A stretch of DNA of 64,000 nucleotides from Cadophora sp. MPI-SDFR-AT-0126 (Eukaryota; Ascomycota; Leotiomycetes; Helotiales; Ploettnerulaceae): assembly GCA_020747065.1 (NCBI GenBank), contig JAGMVK010000012.1, positions 1,612,001 to 1,676,000 on the forward strand, read 5' to 3'. A program made the translations under genes and the position numbers. The notes beneath the pieces were generated by a model. It did not search any database. It saw only the letters and a list, made by a program, of their open reading frames with translations, and had not been told where the DNA came from. Positions 12,898-52,638 of this stretch are shown here, piece after piece. The stretch's first letter is position 1. The number at the start of each line of letters is the position of its first letter.

Positions 12898-13437
12898 TTG
12901 ATACCAGGGCTCATCTCGTTGGAACCTATCTAGCTGATTGGATAATGAGCGAGCCATCTCTTCGCCTGTTTCTTACAGAAGACTAGCTAGAACTTCGTGG
13001 AGAATTTGTTGGAGACTGTAAGAGTTTTATTTGAGGTTGTCGATGAAGCACCTCTCTCTGAAAGCTCCAGAGACAGTAAGATAGAAGAAGAAAACGTCAA
13101 GTAGCAAAATGGAGAGCGGAATTTGGAACAAGGACAAAGTGGCTCTTGAACTTTTCCTCAAACGAAGCGAAGTTATCGTCATTGAAATAGAATAAAGAAA
13201 CACTTCATAGCTACACGGAATGGAAATGTTTACTTCCCCCAAGAAACCTCGTGCCAGACCCCTGACAAGCCCTGCATTAGCGAGCAAGTCGTGAATAAGA
13301 ATATCCACACACGAATCCACCCACCCGACTCCACAACCACCCTTTCGCCAGCCCTGGACAAAATTCTACCTGCCTTATCTAACCAAATAAGCACTCTCCC
13401 GTCACTCAGCACAGTAAAACGTGCTCTCTGGGTTCAA
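12898..13437. other. Intergenic, retroelement to tRNA gene
   Basis: Normal base composition returns sharply at the right LTR. Only short unrecognised open frames are present. The region would contain any upstream sequence of the tRNA gene. Confidence 0.5.
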
Positions 13438-13565
13438 GCCCGTGTAGCTCAAGTGCGTAATCCAATCAAATTGCAACATTCAAGAGCATTCAACTAACAA
13501 TTCAATAGTGGTAGAGCGCGTCACTAGTAATGACGAGGTTGCCGGTTCGATTCCGTCCATGGGCA
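13438..13565 (+). tRNA. tRNA-Thr(AGT) with an interrupted D-loop
   Basis: Acceptor stem GCCCGTG (13438-13444) pairs with CATGGGC (13558-13564), one G-U included; A at 13565 is the discriminator. D-stem GCTC (13447-13450) pairs with GAGC (13514-13517). Anticodon stem CGTCA/TGACG encloses loop CTAGTAA, anticodon AGT (13526-13528), so threonine. The variable region is AGGTT. The T-arm GCCGG-TTCGATT-CCGTC has one C-U mismatch. The B box GGTTCGATTCC is intact and a T6 run follows 22 bases downstream. The oddity is 56 extra bases (13453-13508) in the D-loop; without them the tRNA is 72 nt with D-loop AATGGTA. There is no intron at the canonical position 37/38. It could be a functional gene with an unusual intron or a decayed copy. 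Confidence 0.85.
13453..13508 (+). other. Intron-like insertion in the tRNA-Thr D-loop
   Basis: 56 nt beginning GTGCGT and ending AATAG, with a CTAAC branch-point motif (about 13492-13496) some 10 bases before the end: the layout of a minimal fungal spliceosomal intron. Exact removal leaves GCTCAATGGTAGAGC, a standard D-arm. Alternatively it is a 55-bp insertion between two AGTG copies (13452-13455 and 13507-13510), which would leave a D-loop one base longer. Sequence alone does not decide between these. Confidence 0.7.
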
Positions 13566-13586
13566 GTCAAATTACTCTGTCAATCA

Positions 13587-13592
13587 TTTTTT
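13587..13592 (+). terminator. RNA polymerase III terminator (T6)
   Basis: A run of six T residues 22 bases downstream of the tRNA-Thr discriminator base, as expected for Pol III termination. It supports the idea that the interrupted tRNA gene is still transcribed. Confidence 0.65.
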
Positions 13593-25349: not shown

Positions 25350-27412
25350 ATGAAGTACGAGGACAACAACGTCCAGCGAGCTAAGCGAGCAATTCGCCGT
25401 GGAACAAGCGATTTGCCTGCAGCCGTTGGCCGATACTTTCTTCAAAAAGTCCCCGTTGTTCAATGGCTCCCCAAATACTCTCCTCGATGGATCATCAATG
25501 ATACGATTGCCGGCTTGACAGTTGGTGTCATTCTCGTACCACAGGCCTTGGCGTATGCGAAGATTGCTGGAATTCCTCTTCAGGATGGACTCCTAGCGAG
25601 TTGGCTACCTTCTGTCCTTTACTTCATTATGGGAACATCAAAGGGTGAGTTATTCAAAGGTCAGAGGAGAACTTCCACGTTAACGGGTTTGTAGATATGA
25701 ACACCGGCCCAACTTCTATAATCGGTCTCCTCACTGCTCAAATAATCAAGGATATCGGGACAGAGGGTGGATACTCAGCCACAGCCATTGCAGTCGCCAT
25801 CTCGTTCTCCGTTGGTGTTTACTGTCTCATCTTAGGCATTCTTAAACTCGGTTTCCTGCTCGAGCTAGTATCCCATCCCGTCCTCACCGGCTTCATCTCA
25901 GCAGCGGCAATTACAATCATCCTTGGTCAAGTGCCCGCAATCTTTGGCGAAACGAACATCGGAAGCGGAGTTAAAAATCAACTGCATGATATCTTCGCAA
26001 AATTACCAACGACCAAGCCGATCACTTTCGCCATCGGTGCCTCCGGCATCGTAATGCTGCTCTTGATGCAGATTATCGGCCAAAGATGGGGCAAGAAGAG
26101 CAAGGTTGTTTGGATTATCTCCATTGGTCGAAATGCCATTACAATTCTCCTGTTCACTGTCATCAGTTACGTCCTGAACAAAGATATCGAGAAACCGATC
26201 TTTGCCCTAACGGGAAAAATTCCAGCTGGACTCCTCCCACCCAAGGCTCCAGACATGGCACTTATTGGCAAAGTTTTTCAGCCTAGTCTTGCGGTCTTCC
26301 TCGCTGCTGCTCTCGAACACATCGCTATAGCCAAGTCTTTCGGCCGACGAAACAATTATACGATCGATCAAAGTCAAGAACTGACTTTCCTCGGTGCAGC
26401 AAATATGCTGAACAGCTTCATGGGAGGCATGGCAGTCGGTGGTGCTGCATCACGTACTGCAGTCAACTCTGAGTCGGGTGTGAAGTCTCCCCTGTACGGG
26501 TTATTTACGGCCGGCACTGTCATTACATCGATCTATGCCTTGACAGGTGCACTCTTTTGGATCCCCAAAGCGACTCTATCGGCTGTTATCATCGTTGCCG
26601 TGTACCAGATTATTTCTCATCCCTCTGTCTTCTTTGGCTACTGGAAGGTTTCTGTCGTCGACTTTATGGCATCTATGATTGCATTCTGGGTCACACTCTT
26701 CGTGTCTGCCGAGATGGGAATCGAGCTAGCAACTGGTTTCATGGTGCTGACCACCATTCTCCAGACCCTATTCCTCAAGGGCAAAGGTGTCCCTAAAGAT
26801 GATTTCAACAAGTATTATCCTGTCATCCGAGATGGAGTCGACTATATCCCTGAAGGAACTGCAGTCGTCAAGTTCAACCATCCAATCATCTTCCTCAATG
26901 CATCGCGAGCCAAAGCCTCAATCCTGGACGCGGTTCAGACCTATCACTCTGGAGCCCCATCGGAGTTTACCTCCCCTTCCAAGAACCCAGATCGTATGTG
27001 GAGTGAACTTGGTGCTCGACACATCGCTCTTCTTAGACGCAAAGTCAACATGTCCTACCTCGAGGAGCAACACCTCCCCCAGATCCAGGTCGTGGTCATT
27101 GATCTTTCCGGCGTGATATACGTCGACGAGACCGGAATCATAGCAATGAAAGACATGAAAACTGAACTGAAGACTTACGCTGGCGAGGGTGTTGAGATCA
27201 GAATCGTCGGTTTGAAGAAACACCTGATGGGCAAATTCGAGCGTGCTGGATGGAAGATGGTCCGAAGTGGCGAAGAGACAGAGCAGGACAAAAAGCAAGG
27301 CACTGTCGTCCTGTACCACGACGTCAGAGAGGCAATTTCTGAGGGAGGTACTTTTGGTTTGGAGGAATTTGGACGGAAGGAAAATGTCACGTACACGGAG
27401 AGACGGGCCTAA
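25350..27412 (+). CDS. SulP-family sulfate permease with STAS domain
   Basis: Two exons: 25350-25644 and 25695-27412, giving 670 aa. The intron begins GTGAGT and ends TTGTAG; the join gives FIMGTSKDMNTGPTSIIGL. The N-terminal block INDTIAGLTVGVILVPQALAY, the GPTS motif, LVSHPVLTGFISAAA, and the multi-helix region with FLGAANMLNSFMGGMAVGGAASRTAVN are standard SulP features. The C-terminal STAS domain (about residues 440-640) contains VVVIDLSGVIYVDETGI. The protein should be a plasma-membrane proton-coupled sulfate importer feeding sulfur assimilation (family knowledge). Length is somewhat below the roughly 800 aa of yeast Sul1/2. Another anion, such as molybdate, is possible. Confidence 0.93.
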
Positions 27413-47074: not shown

Positions 47075-50000
47075 ATGAACGCAGATCCCGCCACCGCTAA
47101 TGCACATAACTCCGACAAGATGAGCGACGGTATTCTCAGCGACGAAGAGGAGCAAGACTTCTCAAGTCCAAGTCTCAATAGCATGTCACCCAGCTTCGAA
47201 GACTTCGATCGCTGGCAAGCACACATCGGCCTCAAAACATTCGGGGAAGGTCTGAATGCTGCCGCCAAAGCTGTCTTCCCAGATGAGACGAGATCACGCT
47301 ACGTGAAGGTGTACGTACTGCTAACTTTTTGGGCCGAGGAAGACGTGAACAGGCCAGCACCCATCGAGGTGTCGAAATTGTTCAGTGTGTTTAGGGATAT
47401 CTTCCACTTTGAGGTTCAGACTTTCCGAATTCCGAGTGAAAGCTCACATGTTGCTTTCACGGAGAAGATCTCGGAGTTTGTGAGCCTCGGAGGGGATAGT
47501 GAAGAGCACCTGAAAATTGTGTACTATGCTGGTGCTTCTGAGATATCGAAGAACAGTAGATTGGTGTGGTCCCGGTATGTTGCTCTCCACTTTGATGGAT
47601 GACGCTGACTTGACACAGTGGAAGGGGAAGTCAAAAGTCCTTTGTTGAGTGGACTGATATTCAAACTGCCCTCGAGCAAGCTCAGAGTGATGCATTGGTG
47701 CTTCTGGATTGTGCCCACACGTCGACGCACACTAAGTGCCATAGCAATGGAGTCACTGAACTCATTGCTGCTCGAGCATTCAACCCGAGCTCAAGGAACA
47801 CTGAGCCATACGCCTTCACGAGGGATATGGCGAATGAGCTCCGAGACCTGAGCAAATTGCCATCATTCTCAACCGGAAACCTGTACCACAACATATTTTG
47901 CCGAGCACAGAGTCGGATATCAGAACAGAGTGGAGAAGAGAGAGCGCCTATATACATGCCTCTCGCACAAGAAGATTGGAAACTGCCACGCAGCATCCGT
48001 CTCACTGTCCAGCAAGGCTCTGAAAATGGCCACAGCGAGCCCTCATTCGAGGTTCAGCATCCGCAGGTGGTAGGTACCACTGGCATCTCATCAACACCCT
48101 CTTTTCTCCACTCATCTGCCATACTACCCGGCGAGAGTCCGCGCATGGCCTTTGCGATTCGATTGAAAGACGATTTCAACGTTGGTGATCTCTCGTCAGA
48201 TCTTTTCCTTCAGTGGTTAGGAAATCTTCCCGCATCCGTTGCAGAAGTCAAAATCGAAGCAGGATTCCATAGTTTCTCCTCCCTCCTTATCGTCTCGGTC
48301 CCAATCTGTATGTCGATATATATGCCACAAGACCCGGCTGTGATCAGCTTGGGACCTATCACATCATTCAACCAAGTTTTGAACCGCGTCTCTGGGTTCA
48401 TTCCCAAGGATCTTCCGACTCCCAAGCCTGACGTCTGGGAATTCGATAATCTGCCATCGCCGCCGCCGAGTGGTAAGAAGTCGACCAATGGTGTCAATGG
48501 AGCACATAAGACATCAGAAGTGAGATTCCAAAGACATGCTGAGATCATCGGCGATAAGGAGAATCGACCACCGCTTCAAAGAGGCTTCTCCTCCGACCTT
48601 AGCATTGATAGTGGTTTCGTCGAGCCAATCCTGCCCAATGGGCTTCGTCATGGCCACACACTGATTGGCGAGCTGCCGCCTGCGCTCGAAAAATCACATC
48701 CAATTGTTTCTCCAGGCCCCCATACAAGCGAGCCCAATGGGCCGCAATCCAAAGCACACGCCAAAATCAGATCCTATACCGATGATCCTGACACTAAAAG
48801 GTTCCCAAGAATCTCGAGACCAGTCGAACTGCTGAGGAATACCTACGATTGTCTAGTCATAGGATCTGGATATGGCGGTGGTGTGGCGGCGAGTCGAATG
48901 GCTAGAGCGGGCCAATCCGTCTGTCTCCTCGAGAGGGGCAAAGAGAGATGGCCTGGCGAGTATCCTAGTGGTTTTGTGGATGCATTCAAGAACCTTCATG
49001 TCTCTGGCGAATTTGCTCCTGGCTTTCTGAAAGGTGCTATGGTCGAAGGTGGCGATCCTACCGGGCTCTATCATCTCATCTGTGGTAAAGGACAGAATGC
49101 ATTTGTTGGCAACGGCCTTGGCGGGACGAGTTTGTTGAACGCAAATGTGTTCCTGAAAACCGATGCGAAAACAATGAAAATGCCGTGTTGGCCGAAAGAG
49201 TTGCAGAAGCCAGACTCGCTCAAGGAATATTACGACCGCGCGGCAGAGGTCCTCGAACCAGAAGAATATCCAAAAGACTGGCCAGAACTCCCTAAACTCA
49301 CGATGCTCGAGCGACAAGCCAAGGCTTTGGGCTGGGGCGAGAAGTTCAAAAGAGTACCGCAGACTACTCGTTTCAAGGGTGGTCCTAACAGCACCGGTGT
49401 CGAGATGTATCCTTCTGCCTTGACAGGGATGGATTGCACCGGAGTCAACGACGGATCCAAATCAAGTACCCTTGTCAATTACCTGGCTGACGCCTGGAAT
49501 TGGGGCGCTGAGATGTTCTGTGAATGTGAGGTGAGATACATCAAGAAACATCCTGACCCAGAGGAGGAAGGCTACCTCGTCTTCTTTGCCTGGCATGGAA
49601 GTAGTCGAGGAGCGTTCCAGGAACGCCTGTATGAAGATCTCATGTGGGTTCATGCCAGGAAGTGCGTCTTTCTTGGAGCTGGAAGCATCGGTACAACCGA
49701 AATCCTGCTCAGAAGTAAGAAATTAGGTCTCTCGATGAGCGATAAAGTCGGTACCGGTATGAGTGGGAATGGCGATATCCTAGCATTCGGATACAACACT
49801 GATACCGAAGTCAATGCCATCGGCCGTCAATATCCATCTCCATACAAGCCAGTTGGGCCAACAATCAGCGGTATCATCGACTGCAGAGACGACGTCGACA
49901 ACCCTCTAGATGGATTCGTCATTCAAGAAGGTGCTGTTCCCAAAGCTCTCGCACCACTGTTCCAGACCATGTTGGAGATGATGCCGGGAAATCAAATACC

Positions 50001-52638
50001 CACTGGTCAGACTCTGCTGGAGAAAGTGAAGCATTCGGTCGCACAGCAAGGCAGCCGTTTCTTGGGTCCGTACTACGCAAAAGGCAGCATCGAGCGCACC
50101 CAGGTGTACTTGGTCATGAGCCACGACTCGAATCAAGCTATCTTGACACTGAAAGACGACAAGCCTGTCCTTGAGTTTCTTGGTGTTGGAAGAAGTGATC
50201 ATGTACAGTACCTGAACGATGTTCTGAGGCAAGCCACTCAGGCCGTTGGAGGGACGTATGTCAACAGTCCGTTCTACGCAGCACTCGGTCAGCAGGAAAT
50301 AACTGTTCATCCAATCGGTGGAGCGTGTATGAGTAGGACTGACTTTGGCGAGCATGGCGTCACGAATCACTGGGGCGAAGTCTTCACTGGTGATGGGAAA
50401 GAAACGCATCATGGTCTCGTGGTTACAGATGGTGCTGTTATCCCAACTGCTCTTGGCGTCAACCCATTCGCTACCATCACCGCCCTTGCCGAAAGGTCAG
50501 TCGAACATGCAGCCAAATTCAGAATCAAACGTAAGATTGATTTCGAAACTAAGAACGATATGCTGGATCTGTTTGGTGAGCCACGTCAATATGCCGAGGG
50601 AAAGAAAGTCCTGCAGCGAAACGATACGACTGGTATCAGGGAGGCGACTAGTCTTGTCAAAGCGACGAGAGAGGCCAAATCCATTGGATTTGGTTTCTCC
50701 GAAGTCATGTCGGGATACATTCATGTTGGAGAGGGTATCCAGGGCGATAAGATTGAGGATTATGAGACTGCTGCGAAGACTGCGAAGGGTCTCTGTGAAG
50801 AGGCCAGGTTCTTCCTAAGTGTCAAGGCTTGGAATACGGAGACCAGTGAGTCACCAAGGGATTAGGATGAGATCTATGCTAACAAGACTTAGTCGTCAAC
50901 CGAGCAGATCATAAAGCGATGCTTACGGGTACATTCACGTGTGCTGGTCTTCCCGGGAGTCCGTTCATGGTCCAACGTGGGAGCTTCCATCTCTTCAGCG
51001 TCGATCAGGAAGCACCTGGAACTCGCAACCTTACCTACGATTTCGACATGACGTCCACAGATGGCCGGGCCTTTCATTTCCATGGGCAGAAAATTGTCGA
51101 CTCTTCGGTTGCACTAGGACCTTGGCGGTTCTGGAAAGCAACCTCGACGCTGTATGTGACGATTTCGGAATCATATGGTAGGAAGCAAGTACTAGGCCGT
51201 GGAATGATGCATATCAAGCCGTGGGATTTCTTCTCTGAGATTTTCACACTGAAAGCTTCTGGAAAGAATATCCTTTCCAAAATCCGCTCATCAGCAAGCT
51301 TCATTGGTTTCTTCGCCCGTCAATCGATGGGTCTGTTCCTTGCTCCCTTCACATGGCAACAATACCCATCCGTAACATACACTGGCTACATTAACGACAC
51401 CTCGCCCGACCAAACAATCCAAATCGTCGCTTCCGATGGTGTCCGTTCTCTCCTCCACGTGTGGGAACCTCGCAATCCCAAAATCAAAACAGTCAACCTC
51501 TTCATGATTCCCGGCGCCTCTGTAGACGAAAAGATATTCTCCCTTCCCACCATCGAAGTCAACGCCATCAACTACTTCACCCGTGCCGGCTATCGGGTCT
51601 TCGTCACTGTGCACAGAATCTGCCAGCTCATGGTCGCGGAGAATGACTGGACGACATATGATTCCCGTCTCGATATCCGCGCTTGCTTCGAATGGATTCG
51701 CAAGGAACACGGCCACGCACCTATCTACACCATCTCGCACTGCATGGGCGCAGTGGCCTACTCCGGTGGTCTACTCGACGGCACCATCCCCACGAAATGG
51801 GTGAAAGGCATTTCTACGTCCCAGGTCCTCATGCACCCCATCTGGTCGACCCTTAATATGGCGAAAGTTCTTGCCGGACCAGTCCCATTCGACAAATTGT
51901 ATGGGTGGTTTGGCGGAAAGTGGTTCTCGTGCTCGAGTACGAGGGACGATAGTTATTTCCAGCAATTGCTTAATCAGATCCTACGGTTTTATCCCGATGA
52001 GAGGGAGGAGATTTGTAATAATGTTTCCTGTCATCGGTGTTCCTTGATTTTCGGTCGGTGAGTACTCCTACCTTCTTTCTCTTCTTCGTCTCTCCCCGTC
52101 CTCCTTCTCTTGCATCTTAAATTCTTCTCTGCACAAGACATGATACTGATCTCAAGCGAATTGCAGTCTCTGGAACCACCGCAACCTAAACGAAGCTACC
52201 CACCGCCAAATAAACCGCTTCTTCGGCGGCGTCAACATGACCCTCCTTCACCTCCTCATGCGCATGGGCTACCACGGCCACGTAACCACCAACGGCCCCC
52301 TCTTCACGCCCCTCACCACCCCTCACAATCTGCATCGCCTCAAGAACATTCCTATCCTCTTCTTCTCCGGCTCAGACAATAAAGTGCTCACTCCAGAATC
52401 CACAGACAAGAGTTATACTGTTCTGAGGGATATGTTTGGCACGAGGGATTATAGTAGACATGTGGTGCAGGGGTATGGGCATTTGGATTGTTGGATGGGG
52501 AGGAGGGCTTATAAGGATGTTTTCCCGATGCTGAGGGAGGAGGTTGATAGGGTTTGTAGAGGCGAGGGGTATAAGTACCAGGAGCCAGATTGGGAGAATG
52601 ATTGGGAGGGTTGGCGAGATTTGCCGAAGAGTGGTTGA
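47075..52638 (+). CDS. Caspase-like / GMC oxidoreductase / alpha-beta hydrolase fusion protein
   Basis: Four exons: 47075-47574, 47619-50845, 50893-52057 and 52167-52638, giving 1787 aa. All three introns have GTATGT or GTGAGT donors and exact phase. Residues about 75-300 are a fungal caspase-like (C14) domain: VYVLLTFWAEED, HLKIVYYAG and VLLDCAH (Cys198 at the nucleophile position). The usual catalytic His after YYxG is replaced (ASE, Ala154), so it is probably inactive as a protease. A Ser/Pro-rich linker follows. Residues about 576-1125 are a GMC/cholesterol-oxidase-like flavoprotein (VIGSGYGGGVAASRMA, GGTSLLNANVF, HPIGGACM, GVNPFATITALAERS). The C-terminal part (about 1330-1787) is an alpha/beta hydrolase with nucleophile elbow ISHCMGAVA (Cys, not Ser) and late His in GYGHLD. 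One exon encodes the caspase Cys and the entire GMC domain, so the fusion is genuine in this sequence. Confidence 0.9.

Follow-up and report, generated by a model that had tools for sequence, protein, structure and literature searches.

Introns with spliceosomal signals interrupt nuclear tRNA genes of Cadophora sp. MPI-SDFR-AT-0126 and are probably removed by the spliceosome

A tRNA-Thr(AGT) gene whose D-loop is split by an insert lies on the plus strand of the window, the 64,000-nt stretch of DNA analyzed here (C4, positions 1612001-1676000). The gene and the elements around it, given in window coordinates, are as follows.

13385..13392, plus strand: TATA-like upstream element AAATAAGC, at -53 (motif search)
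13438-13565, plus strand: tRNA-Thr(AGT) gene, D-loop split by an insert (direct sequence reading)
13438..13452, plus strand: exon 1, with the acceptor 5' strand, the D-stem 5' strand and the start of the D-loop, GCCCGTGTAGCTCAA (direct reading)
13453..13508, plus strand: 56-nt spliceosomal-type intron in the D-loop, after tRNA nucleotide 15 (GTGCGT...CTAAC...AATAG)
13494..13498, plus strand: branch-site-like CTAAC; the presumed branch A, 13497, lies 11 nt upstream of the intron end
13509..13565, plus strand: exon 2, with the rest of the D-arm, the anticodon arm (AGT), the T-arm, the acceptor 3' strand and the discriminator A, ending in GTCCATGGGCA (ARAGORN, Thr(agt) after removal of the insert)
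13544..13554, plus strand: B box GGTTCGATTCC (direct reading; B-box pattern match at C4:1625544)
13587..13592, plus strand: T6, Pol III terminator-like (direct reading)

The sequence-only reading had described a 56-nt D-loop insert with GTGCGT, CTAAC and AATAG in this gene, together with an intact B box and a downstream T6, and direct reading of the sequence located every one of these elements. The acceptor strands of exon 1 and exon 2 pair at 7 of 7 positions. A tRNA finder run with the 56 nt removed had been proposed as a check; ARAGORN then reported tRNA-Thr(agt), and it made no call with the insert in place. Scans of the whole window with ARAGORN and with Rfam at the gathering threshold called no tRNA, and tRNA counts in such fungi may therefore be too low, as tRNA finders limited to eukaryotic introns at 37/38 may miss such genes. 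Detection of noncanonical tRNA introns is described for archaea (PMC8450103), and the draft genome of another Cadophora strain is credited with 124 tRNAs (PMC8248866). Elsewhere in the window lies a long oxidoreductase open reading frame; Cadophora gregata (91%), Oculimacula yallundae (86%) and Rhynchosporium graminicola (85%) rank high among its named relatives, which places the fungus in the Helotiales.

To find paralogues, we searched the window gene against its own genome (54 Mb, 38 contigs). Three further Thr-AGT genes were recovered, one of them uninterrupted (G000:C2:330428-330499). This copy bears out the earlier claim that precise GT..AG removal yields a standard D-arm, since the 16-nt spliced junction of the window gene is the same as the corresponding sequence of the uninterrupted paralogue. 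The other two are interrupted: L071, on C6, has two inserts, in the D-loop and the T-loop, while L072 (C2:36671) combines a D-loop insert with an ordinary 37/38 intron. With the inserts removed, the window gene and L071 have the same tRNA body. Acceptor stems of the Thr genes differ by compensated changes (GCCCGTG/CATGGGC and GCCTCTG/CAGAGGC), and the uninterrupted copy has GCCCGCA/TGTGGGC. The C-U mismatch in the T-stem, previously read as possible decay, is common to all four Thr-AGT genes; because the uninterrupted copy and the other two interrupted copies also have it, the mismatch is a normal feature of Thr-AGT tRNA in this genome. Many intact Thr-AGT copies elsewhere, together with an absence of reads from this locus, had been named as the mark of a dead insertion; we found one uninterrupted copy against three interrupted ones. 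Since an uninterrupted copy does exist, the window locus alone could be silent.

Across the same genome, we resolved 30 inserts outside position 37/38 in 27 tRNA genes representing 11 amino-acid isotypes. The interrupted genes are Thr-AGT (three), Thr-TGT, Arg-ACG, Arg-TCG, Arg-TCT, Ala-AGC (two), Ile-AAT (three), elongator Met, His (three), Leu-AAG, Leu-CAG, Pro-TGG (three), Ser-GCT, Gly-GCC (two) and Asn (three). By hand assignment, the inserts lie in the D-arm (9), the T-arm (11), the acceptor stem (4), the junction of the D- and anticodon stems (3), the variable region (2) and the anticodon stem (1). None of the 30 occupies the canonical position 37/38, and the class of canonical Sen-type introns was rejected on this basis. 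The Ser-GCT gene L101 carries three ectopic inserts plus one canonical intron, and its three spliced junctions equal the sequence of another Ser-GCT gene, L049, which has the canonical intron alone. A 116-nt T-loop intron in the tRNA-Pro gene L099 (C3:319980-320430) contains a GA-repeat expansion.

These loci were collected by Rfam tRNA searches, concatenated tRNA queries, B-box patterns and D-arm patterns, after which loci were read. In the Rfam family search, 62 of 1988 candidates were scored. The first B-box pattern gave 38 matches, of which 28 were new and all 28 were examined; the first 20 of these comprised 10 tRNA genes and 10 other loci. A batch of 18 loci, which included the other eight of these 28, comprised 11 tRNA genes, two fragments (L105 and L107), one odd locus (L113) and four non-tRNA loci (L109, L110, L111 and L114). 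A second B-box pattern gave 61 matches, one of them the already collected L045, and 27 of the other 60 were examined, namely those with at least four of five T-stem pairs. By hand tally, about 86 tRNA loci were met and roughly a third are interrupted, a share that comes from a partial census made with searches that favor uninterrupted genes. No Cys or Tyr tRNA genes, among others, were recognized in this partial census, and approximate human tRNA sequences gave no match as DNA queries. Outside the 27 genes stand fragments, non-tRNA loci and six odd loci (L113, L138, L191, L143, L144 and L160). In the latter, the acceptor, D- and T-arms look plausible, but some 100 nt separate the D-arm from the T-arm and no anticodon arm was resolved; they may hold inserts of another kind.

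To compare splice signals, we hand-delimited 40 canonical 37/38 introns from the same genome. GT..AG ends are present in 30/30 ectopic inserts and in 0/40 canonical introns, even when the ends of the latter are slid (Fisher P = 2e-20, with inserts treated as independent); "30/30" counts only the inserts that could be resolved to a tRNA body and leaves the six odd tRNA-like loci outside. The 5' sites are GTRNGT-like, with GTAAGT in 11, GTATGT in 5, GTGAGT in 4, GTACGT in 3 and others in 7, and the 3' ends are CAG (22), TAG (6) and AAG (2). CTRAY, the branch-site motif of spliceosomal introns, occurs near the 3' end of all 30 ectopic inserts and of 1/40 canonical introns. Its A lies 9 to 13 nt from the intron end in 29 inserts and 17 nt in one, and when the interiors of the 30 inserts were shuffled, CTRAY fell in the expected stretch in 6.8%. 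Lengths also differ, with a median of 52.5 nt (range, 50 to 116) for ectopic inserts versus 18 nt (11 to 42) for canonical introns.

These signals bear directly on how the inserts might be removed. The main rival to the spliceosome is the tRNA splicing endonuclease (Sen complex), which might excise them as in archaea and red algae, the GT..AG ends being incidental. Ectopic tRNA introns of archaea and Cyanidioschyzon merolae are described as bulge-helix-bulge (BHB) type and ascribed to the tRNA endonuclease (PMC4090602, PMC3978253), and several of our interrupted genes also carry 37/38 introns. Removal by the endonuclease would, however, leave unexplained why GT..AG ends and a branch-like motif at a near-fixed distance mark 30/30 ectopic inserts, against 0/40 canonical introns with GT..AG ends, and we regard it as very improbable. 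A simple pairing test found a full BHB in 0/30 ectopic inserts and 4/40 canonical introns; because even the canonical introns seldom pass, it does not tell the two kinds apart. The sequence-only reading had left a choice between a spliceosomal intron that had entered a Pol III gene and an insertion, flanked by AGTG microrepeats, that split the A box. With splice signals in all 30 resolved inserts, random insertion or slippage at such microrepeats is rejected as a general account, while the spliceosomal reading is now strongly favored by 30 removable GT..CTRAY..AG inserts in 27 genes, including isotypes for which no uninterrupted copy was found. Group I and II self-splicing introns were set aside by length only (50 to 116 nt, whereas their conserved catalytic core spans hundreds of nucleotides).

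Introns of the same kind are found elsewhere in this genome. Four exon gaps in two protein genes of the window were tested, and three introns of one of these genes (47575-47618, 50846-50892 and 52058-52166) have the same kind of sites as the tRNA inserts; their ends were set by the splice filter, and for two of them one of several possible 3' ends was chosen. The fourth gap, near 25645 in the other protein gene, yielded no GT..CTRAY..AG candidate in that filter. U6, which is a Pol III transcript, is also interrupted, as follows.

C11:486350-486950, positions 201-255 and 294-344: two U6 introns in L124 (55 and 51 nt), GT..AG
C38:2219900-2221700, positions 1162-1212: U6 intron in L126 (51 nt), GT..AG

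The U6 introns contain CTAAT or CTAAC motifs and are of the same kind as the tRNA inserts; a diverged U6-like locus, L125, has no such intron. Among the 30 tRNA introns, pairwise comparison gave only three matches, of 13 to 16 nt, and a search of the genome with the interior of the window intron gave no other match at an E value of ≤10. Thus, although many intron gains in one genome recall introner elements, the tRNA introns include no near-identical family, and introner elements were rejected.

We next consider whether removal of the inserts restores tRNA bodies, which can be read from the assembly. Before removal, ARAGORN called a tRNA in 7/27 genes, 3 with the expected isotype; after removal, it called one in 27/27, 24 with the expected isotype. 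The three misnamed after removal are Asn L132, Leu-CAG L112 and elongator Met L076. ARAGORN names L132 correctly once its canonical intron is also taken out. It reads L112 as TCA, also without the canonical intron, and says Met for L076 only with the insert present, misnaming the spliced form with or without the canonical intron; wrongly placed canonical intron ends are perhaps the cause in these two. The isotype of L112 rests on our own reading, and that of L076 on our own reading, the paralogue L029 and the unspliced ARAGORN call. Acceptor stems pair 7/7 in 24/27 genes as scripted and in the three Asn genes after one surplus end base was trimmed by eye. The Ile stems differ by compensated changes (GGTCGCT/AGTGACC versus GATCGCT/AGTGATC). 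As the acceptor strands flank the inserts, complete pairing and compensated changes were counted in favor of real tRNA genes. Where an uninterrupted paralogue is known, 18/23 junctions are exact over 16 nt, or over 14 nt in two acceptor-stem cases, and the remaining 5/23 are 1 to 4 bases off the nearest uninterrupted paralogue.

For some isotypes, the searches of this assembly recovered only interrupted genes. Queries of the genome with spliced His sequences returned three genes, all interrupted, and no uninterrupted copy, although such a copy would be expected as the strongest match. The three His inserts occupy the same D-arm place, and they differ in length and sequence. A D-arm pattern ending where the Asn insert begins likewise returned three Asn genes, 3/3 interrupted; the pattern would also have picked up an uninterrupted gene sharing that D-arm, and none appeared. 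That pattern allowed one mismatch, which all three genes used, so a copy with a further D-arm change would be missed. A Leu-CAG query recovered a single gene, which is interrupted. His and Asn codons would therefore be readable only if the inserts are removed, unless uninterrupted copies are absent from the assembly or were missed.

This dependence is the strongest argument against the view that the interrupted genes are pseudogenes or dead insertions which persist by chance, their role being filled by other copies. That view can draw on the uninterrupted Thr-AGT copy and on a review in which short insertions into the D- or T-arm of eukaryotic tRNA genes count as rare and, in most cases, as pseudogenes, with nucleomorphs and C. 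merolae excepted (PMC4090602). It is hard to square with His, Asn and Leu-CAG, for which no uninterrupted copy was found, with acceptor stems that are intact and compensated, and with upstream elements and terminators whose frequency is close to that in loci lacking ectopic inserts. Decayed loci in this genome, moreover, look different: L105 and L107 are truncated or decayed fragments of tRNA-Leu and tRNA-Gly. We accordingly see hardly any chance that the genes are dead, and the interrupted tRNA genes are most likely functional. Downstream of the His genes L090 and L104, before any long T-run, we noted a B-box-like T-arm (GATGG-TTCAATT-CCATC in L090 and GATGG-TTTAATT-CCATC in L104); by eye, and in part for L089, the stretch 3' of the His genes may act as an external promoter element or belong to a second RNA.

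Where the insert lies in the D-arm, the A box is disrupted. Among flanking elements, a TATA-like motif is present at -60 to -20 in 20/27 interrupted genes and in 20/24 loci without an ectopic insert, the latter being the plus-strand ones chosen from 48 Rfam-search loci; in 40-nt pieces drawn at random from the window, the share is 5%. The motif is absent from this interval in 7/27 interrupted genes, among them the Thr-AGT genes L071 and L072. At least five T's within 40 nt downstream occur in 23/27 interrupted genes and 20/24 loci without an ectopic insert, versus 4% of random stretches. Upstream TATA elements are important to the transcription of tRNAs in some plants and fungi, and they may be what allows C. 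merolae to transcribe disrupted tRNA genes (PMC3978253). By analogy, we infer that upstream elements make interruption of the A box tolerable here too. Judged from these flanking motifs, the interrupted genes are probably transcribed by Pol III.

Splicing by the spliceosome normally goes with Pol II transcription, and this coupling invites a different account, in which Pol II transcribes the loci, the introns are taken out by the spliceosome and the tRNAs arise by a Pol II route or as by-products. The TATA-like elements (20/27) and T-runs (23/27), present as in tRNA loci without ectopic inserts, argue against it, as do the U6 genes of this genome, which also bear introns; we consider transcription by Pol II most unlikely.

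Taken together, these data make it highly probable that the inserts are U2-type spliceosomal introns in nuclear tRNA genes and that the pre-tRNAs, most likely Pol III transcripts, are spliced by the spliceosome. For the window gene, we infer the polymerase, the spliceosome as the excising machinery, the sequence of events and the function of the product as follows. Transcription would most likely be carried out by Pol III from the upstream TATA-like element and the B box and end at the T6. On the pre-tRNA, the spliceosome would then recognize GTGCGT at the 5' end of the intron, CTAAC as the branch site and TAG as the 3' site; 13453-13508 would be removed and GCTCAA joined to TGGTAGAGC, giving a normal D-arm, with end processing and modification following intron removal. 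Ordinary 37/38 introns are presumably still removed by the tRNA endonuclease and ligase, and because both kinds of intron occur in the same genes, several pre-tRNAs would need both splicing systems. We further consider it likely that the spliceosome is an essential tRNA-processing enzyme in this fungus: His, Asn and some Leu pre-tRNAs would be available only with spliceosomal introns, up to three such introns accompany a canonical one in one tRNA-Ser gene, and translation would rely on both splicing systems processing the same Pol III pre-tRNA.

In the textbook division, mRNA splicing belongs to the spliceosome and tRNA splicing to an endonuclease and a ligase. The tRNA introns described here resemble canonical 37/38 introns in sharing the genome and often the gene, but they differ in their ectopic position, their length and their GT..AG ends. 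Like the ectopic tRNA introns of archaea, C. merolae and nucleomorphs, they lie in the D-, T- and other arms, with several in one gene; unlike them, they have full spliceosomal signals and a median of 52.5 nt. The ectopic introns of the Guillardia theta nucleomorph are given as 3 to 24 nt, with the mechanism unknown (PMC4090602, PMC3978253). A close parallel is in fungal U3 and U6, where short GT..AG introns with a branch site also interrupt small structured noncoding RNAs; the hosts here differ in being tRNAs, with their own splicing pathway and internal promoters. Fungal U3 and U6 introns are taken as spliceosomal, those of U3 being described as normal spliceosomal introns, and according to the same source, as of 2017 no small structured RNAs other than U3 and U6 were known to be interrupted often (PMC5832005). 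Among the full-text matches listed, in which subscription papers and preprints are thinly covered, no title or opening of an abstract describes introns of this type in nuclear tRNA genes.

Spliceosomal introns are thus known from the Pol III RNA U6, and their extension to tRNAs, with isotypes that apparently depend on it, would surprise specialists. If the proposed reading is true, spliceosomes can act on tRNA precursors, a gene can survive the disruption of its internal A box, and the supply of tRNA is tied to spliceosome activity. These genes also offer a view of intron gain, with many gains in genes of about 72 nt and junctions readable to the base. Finally, 3' trailers appear to be conserved within an isotype, and by eye hairpins are possible in those of tRNA-Phe (L121 to L123), tRNA-Asp (L077, L087, L092 and L108 but not L093) and tRNA-Lys (L031 and L034 to L036).
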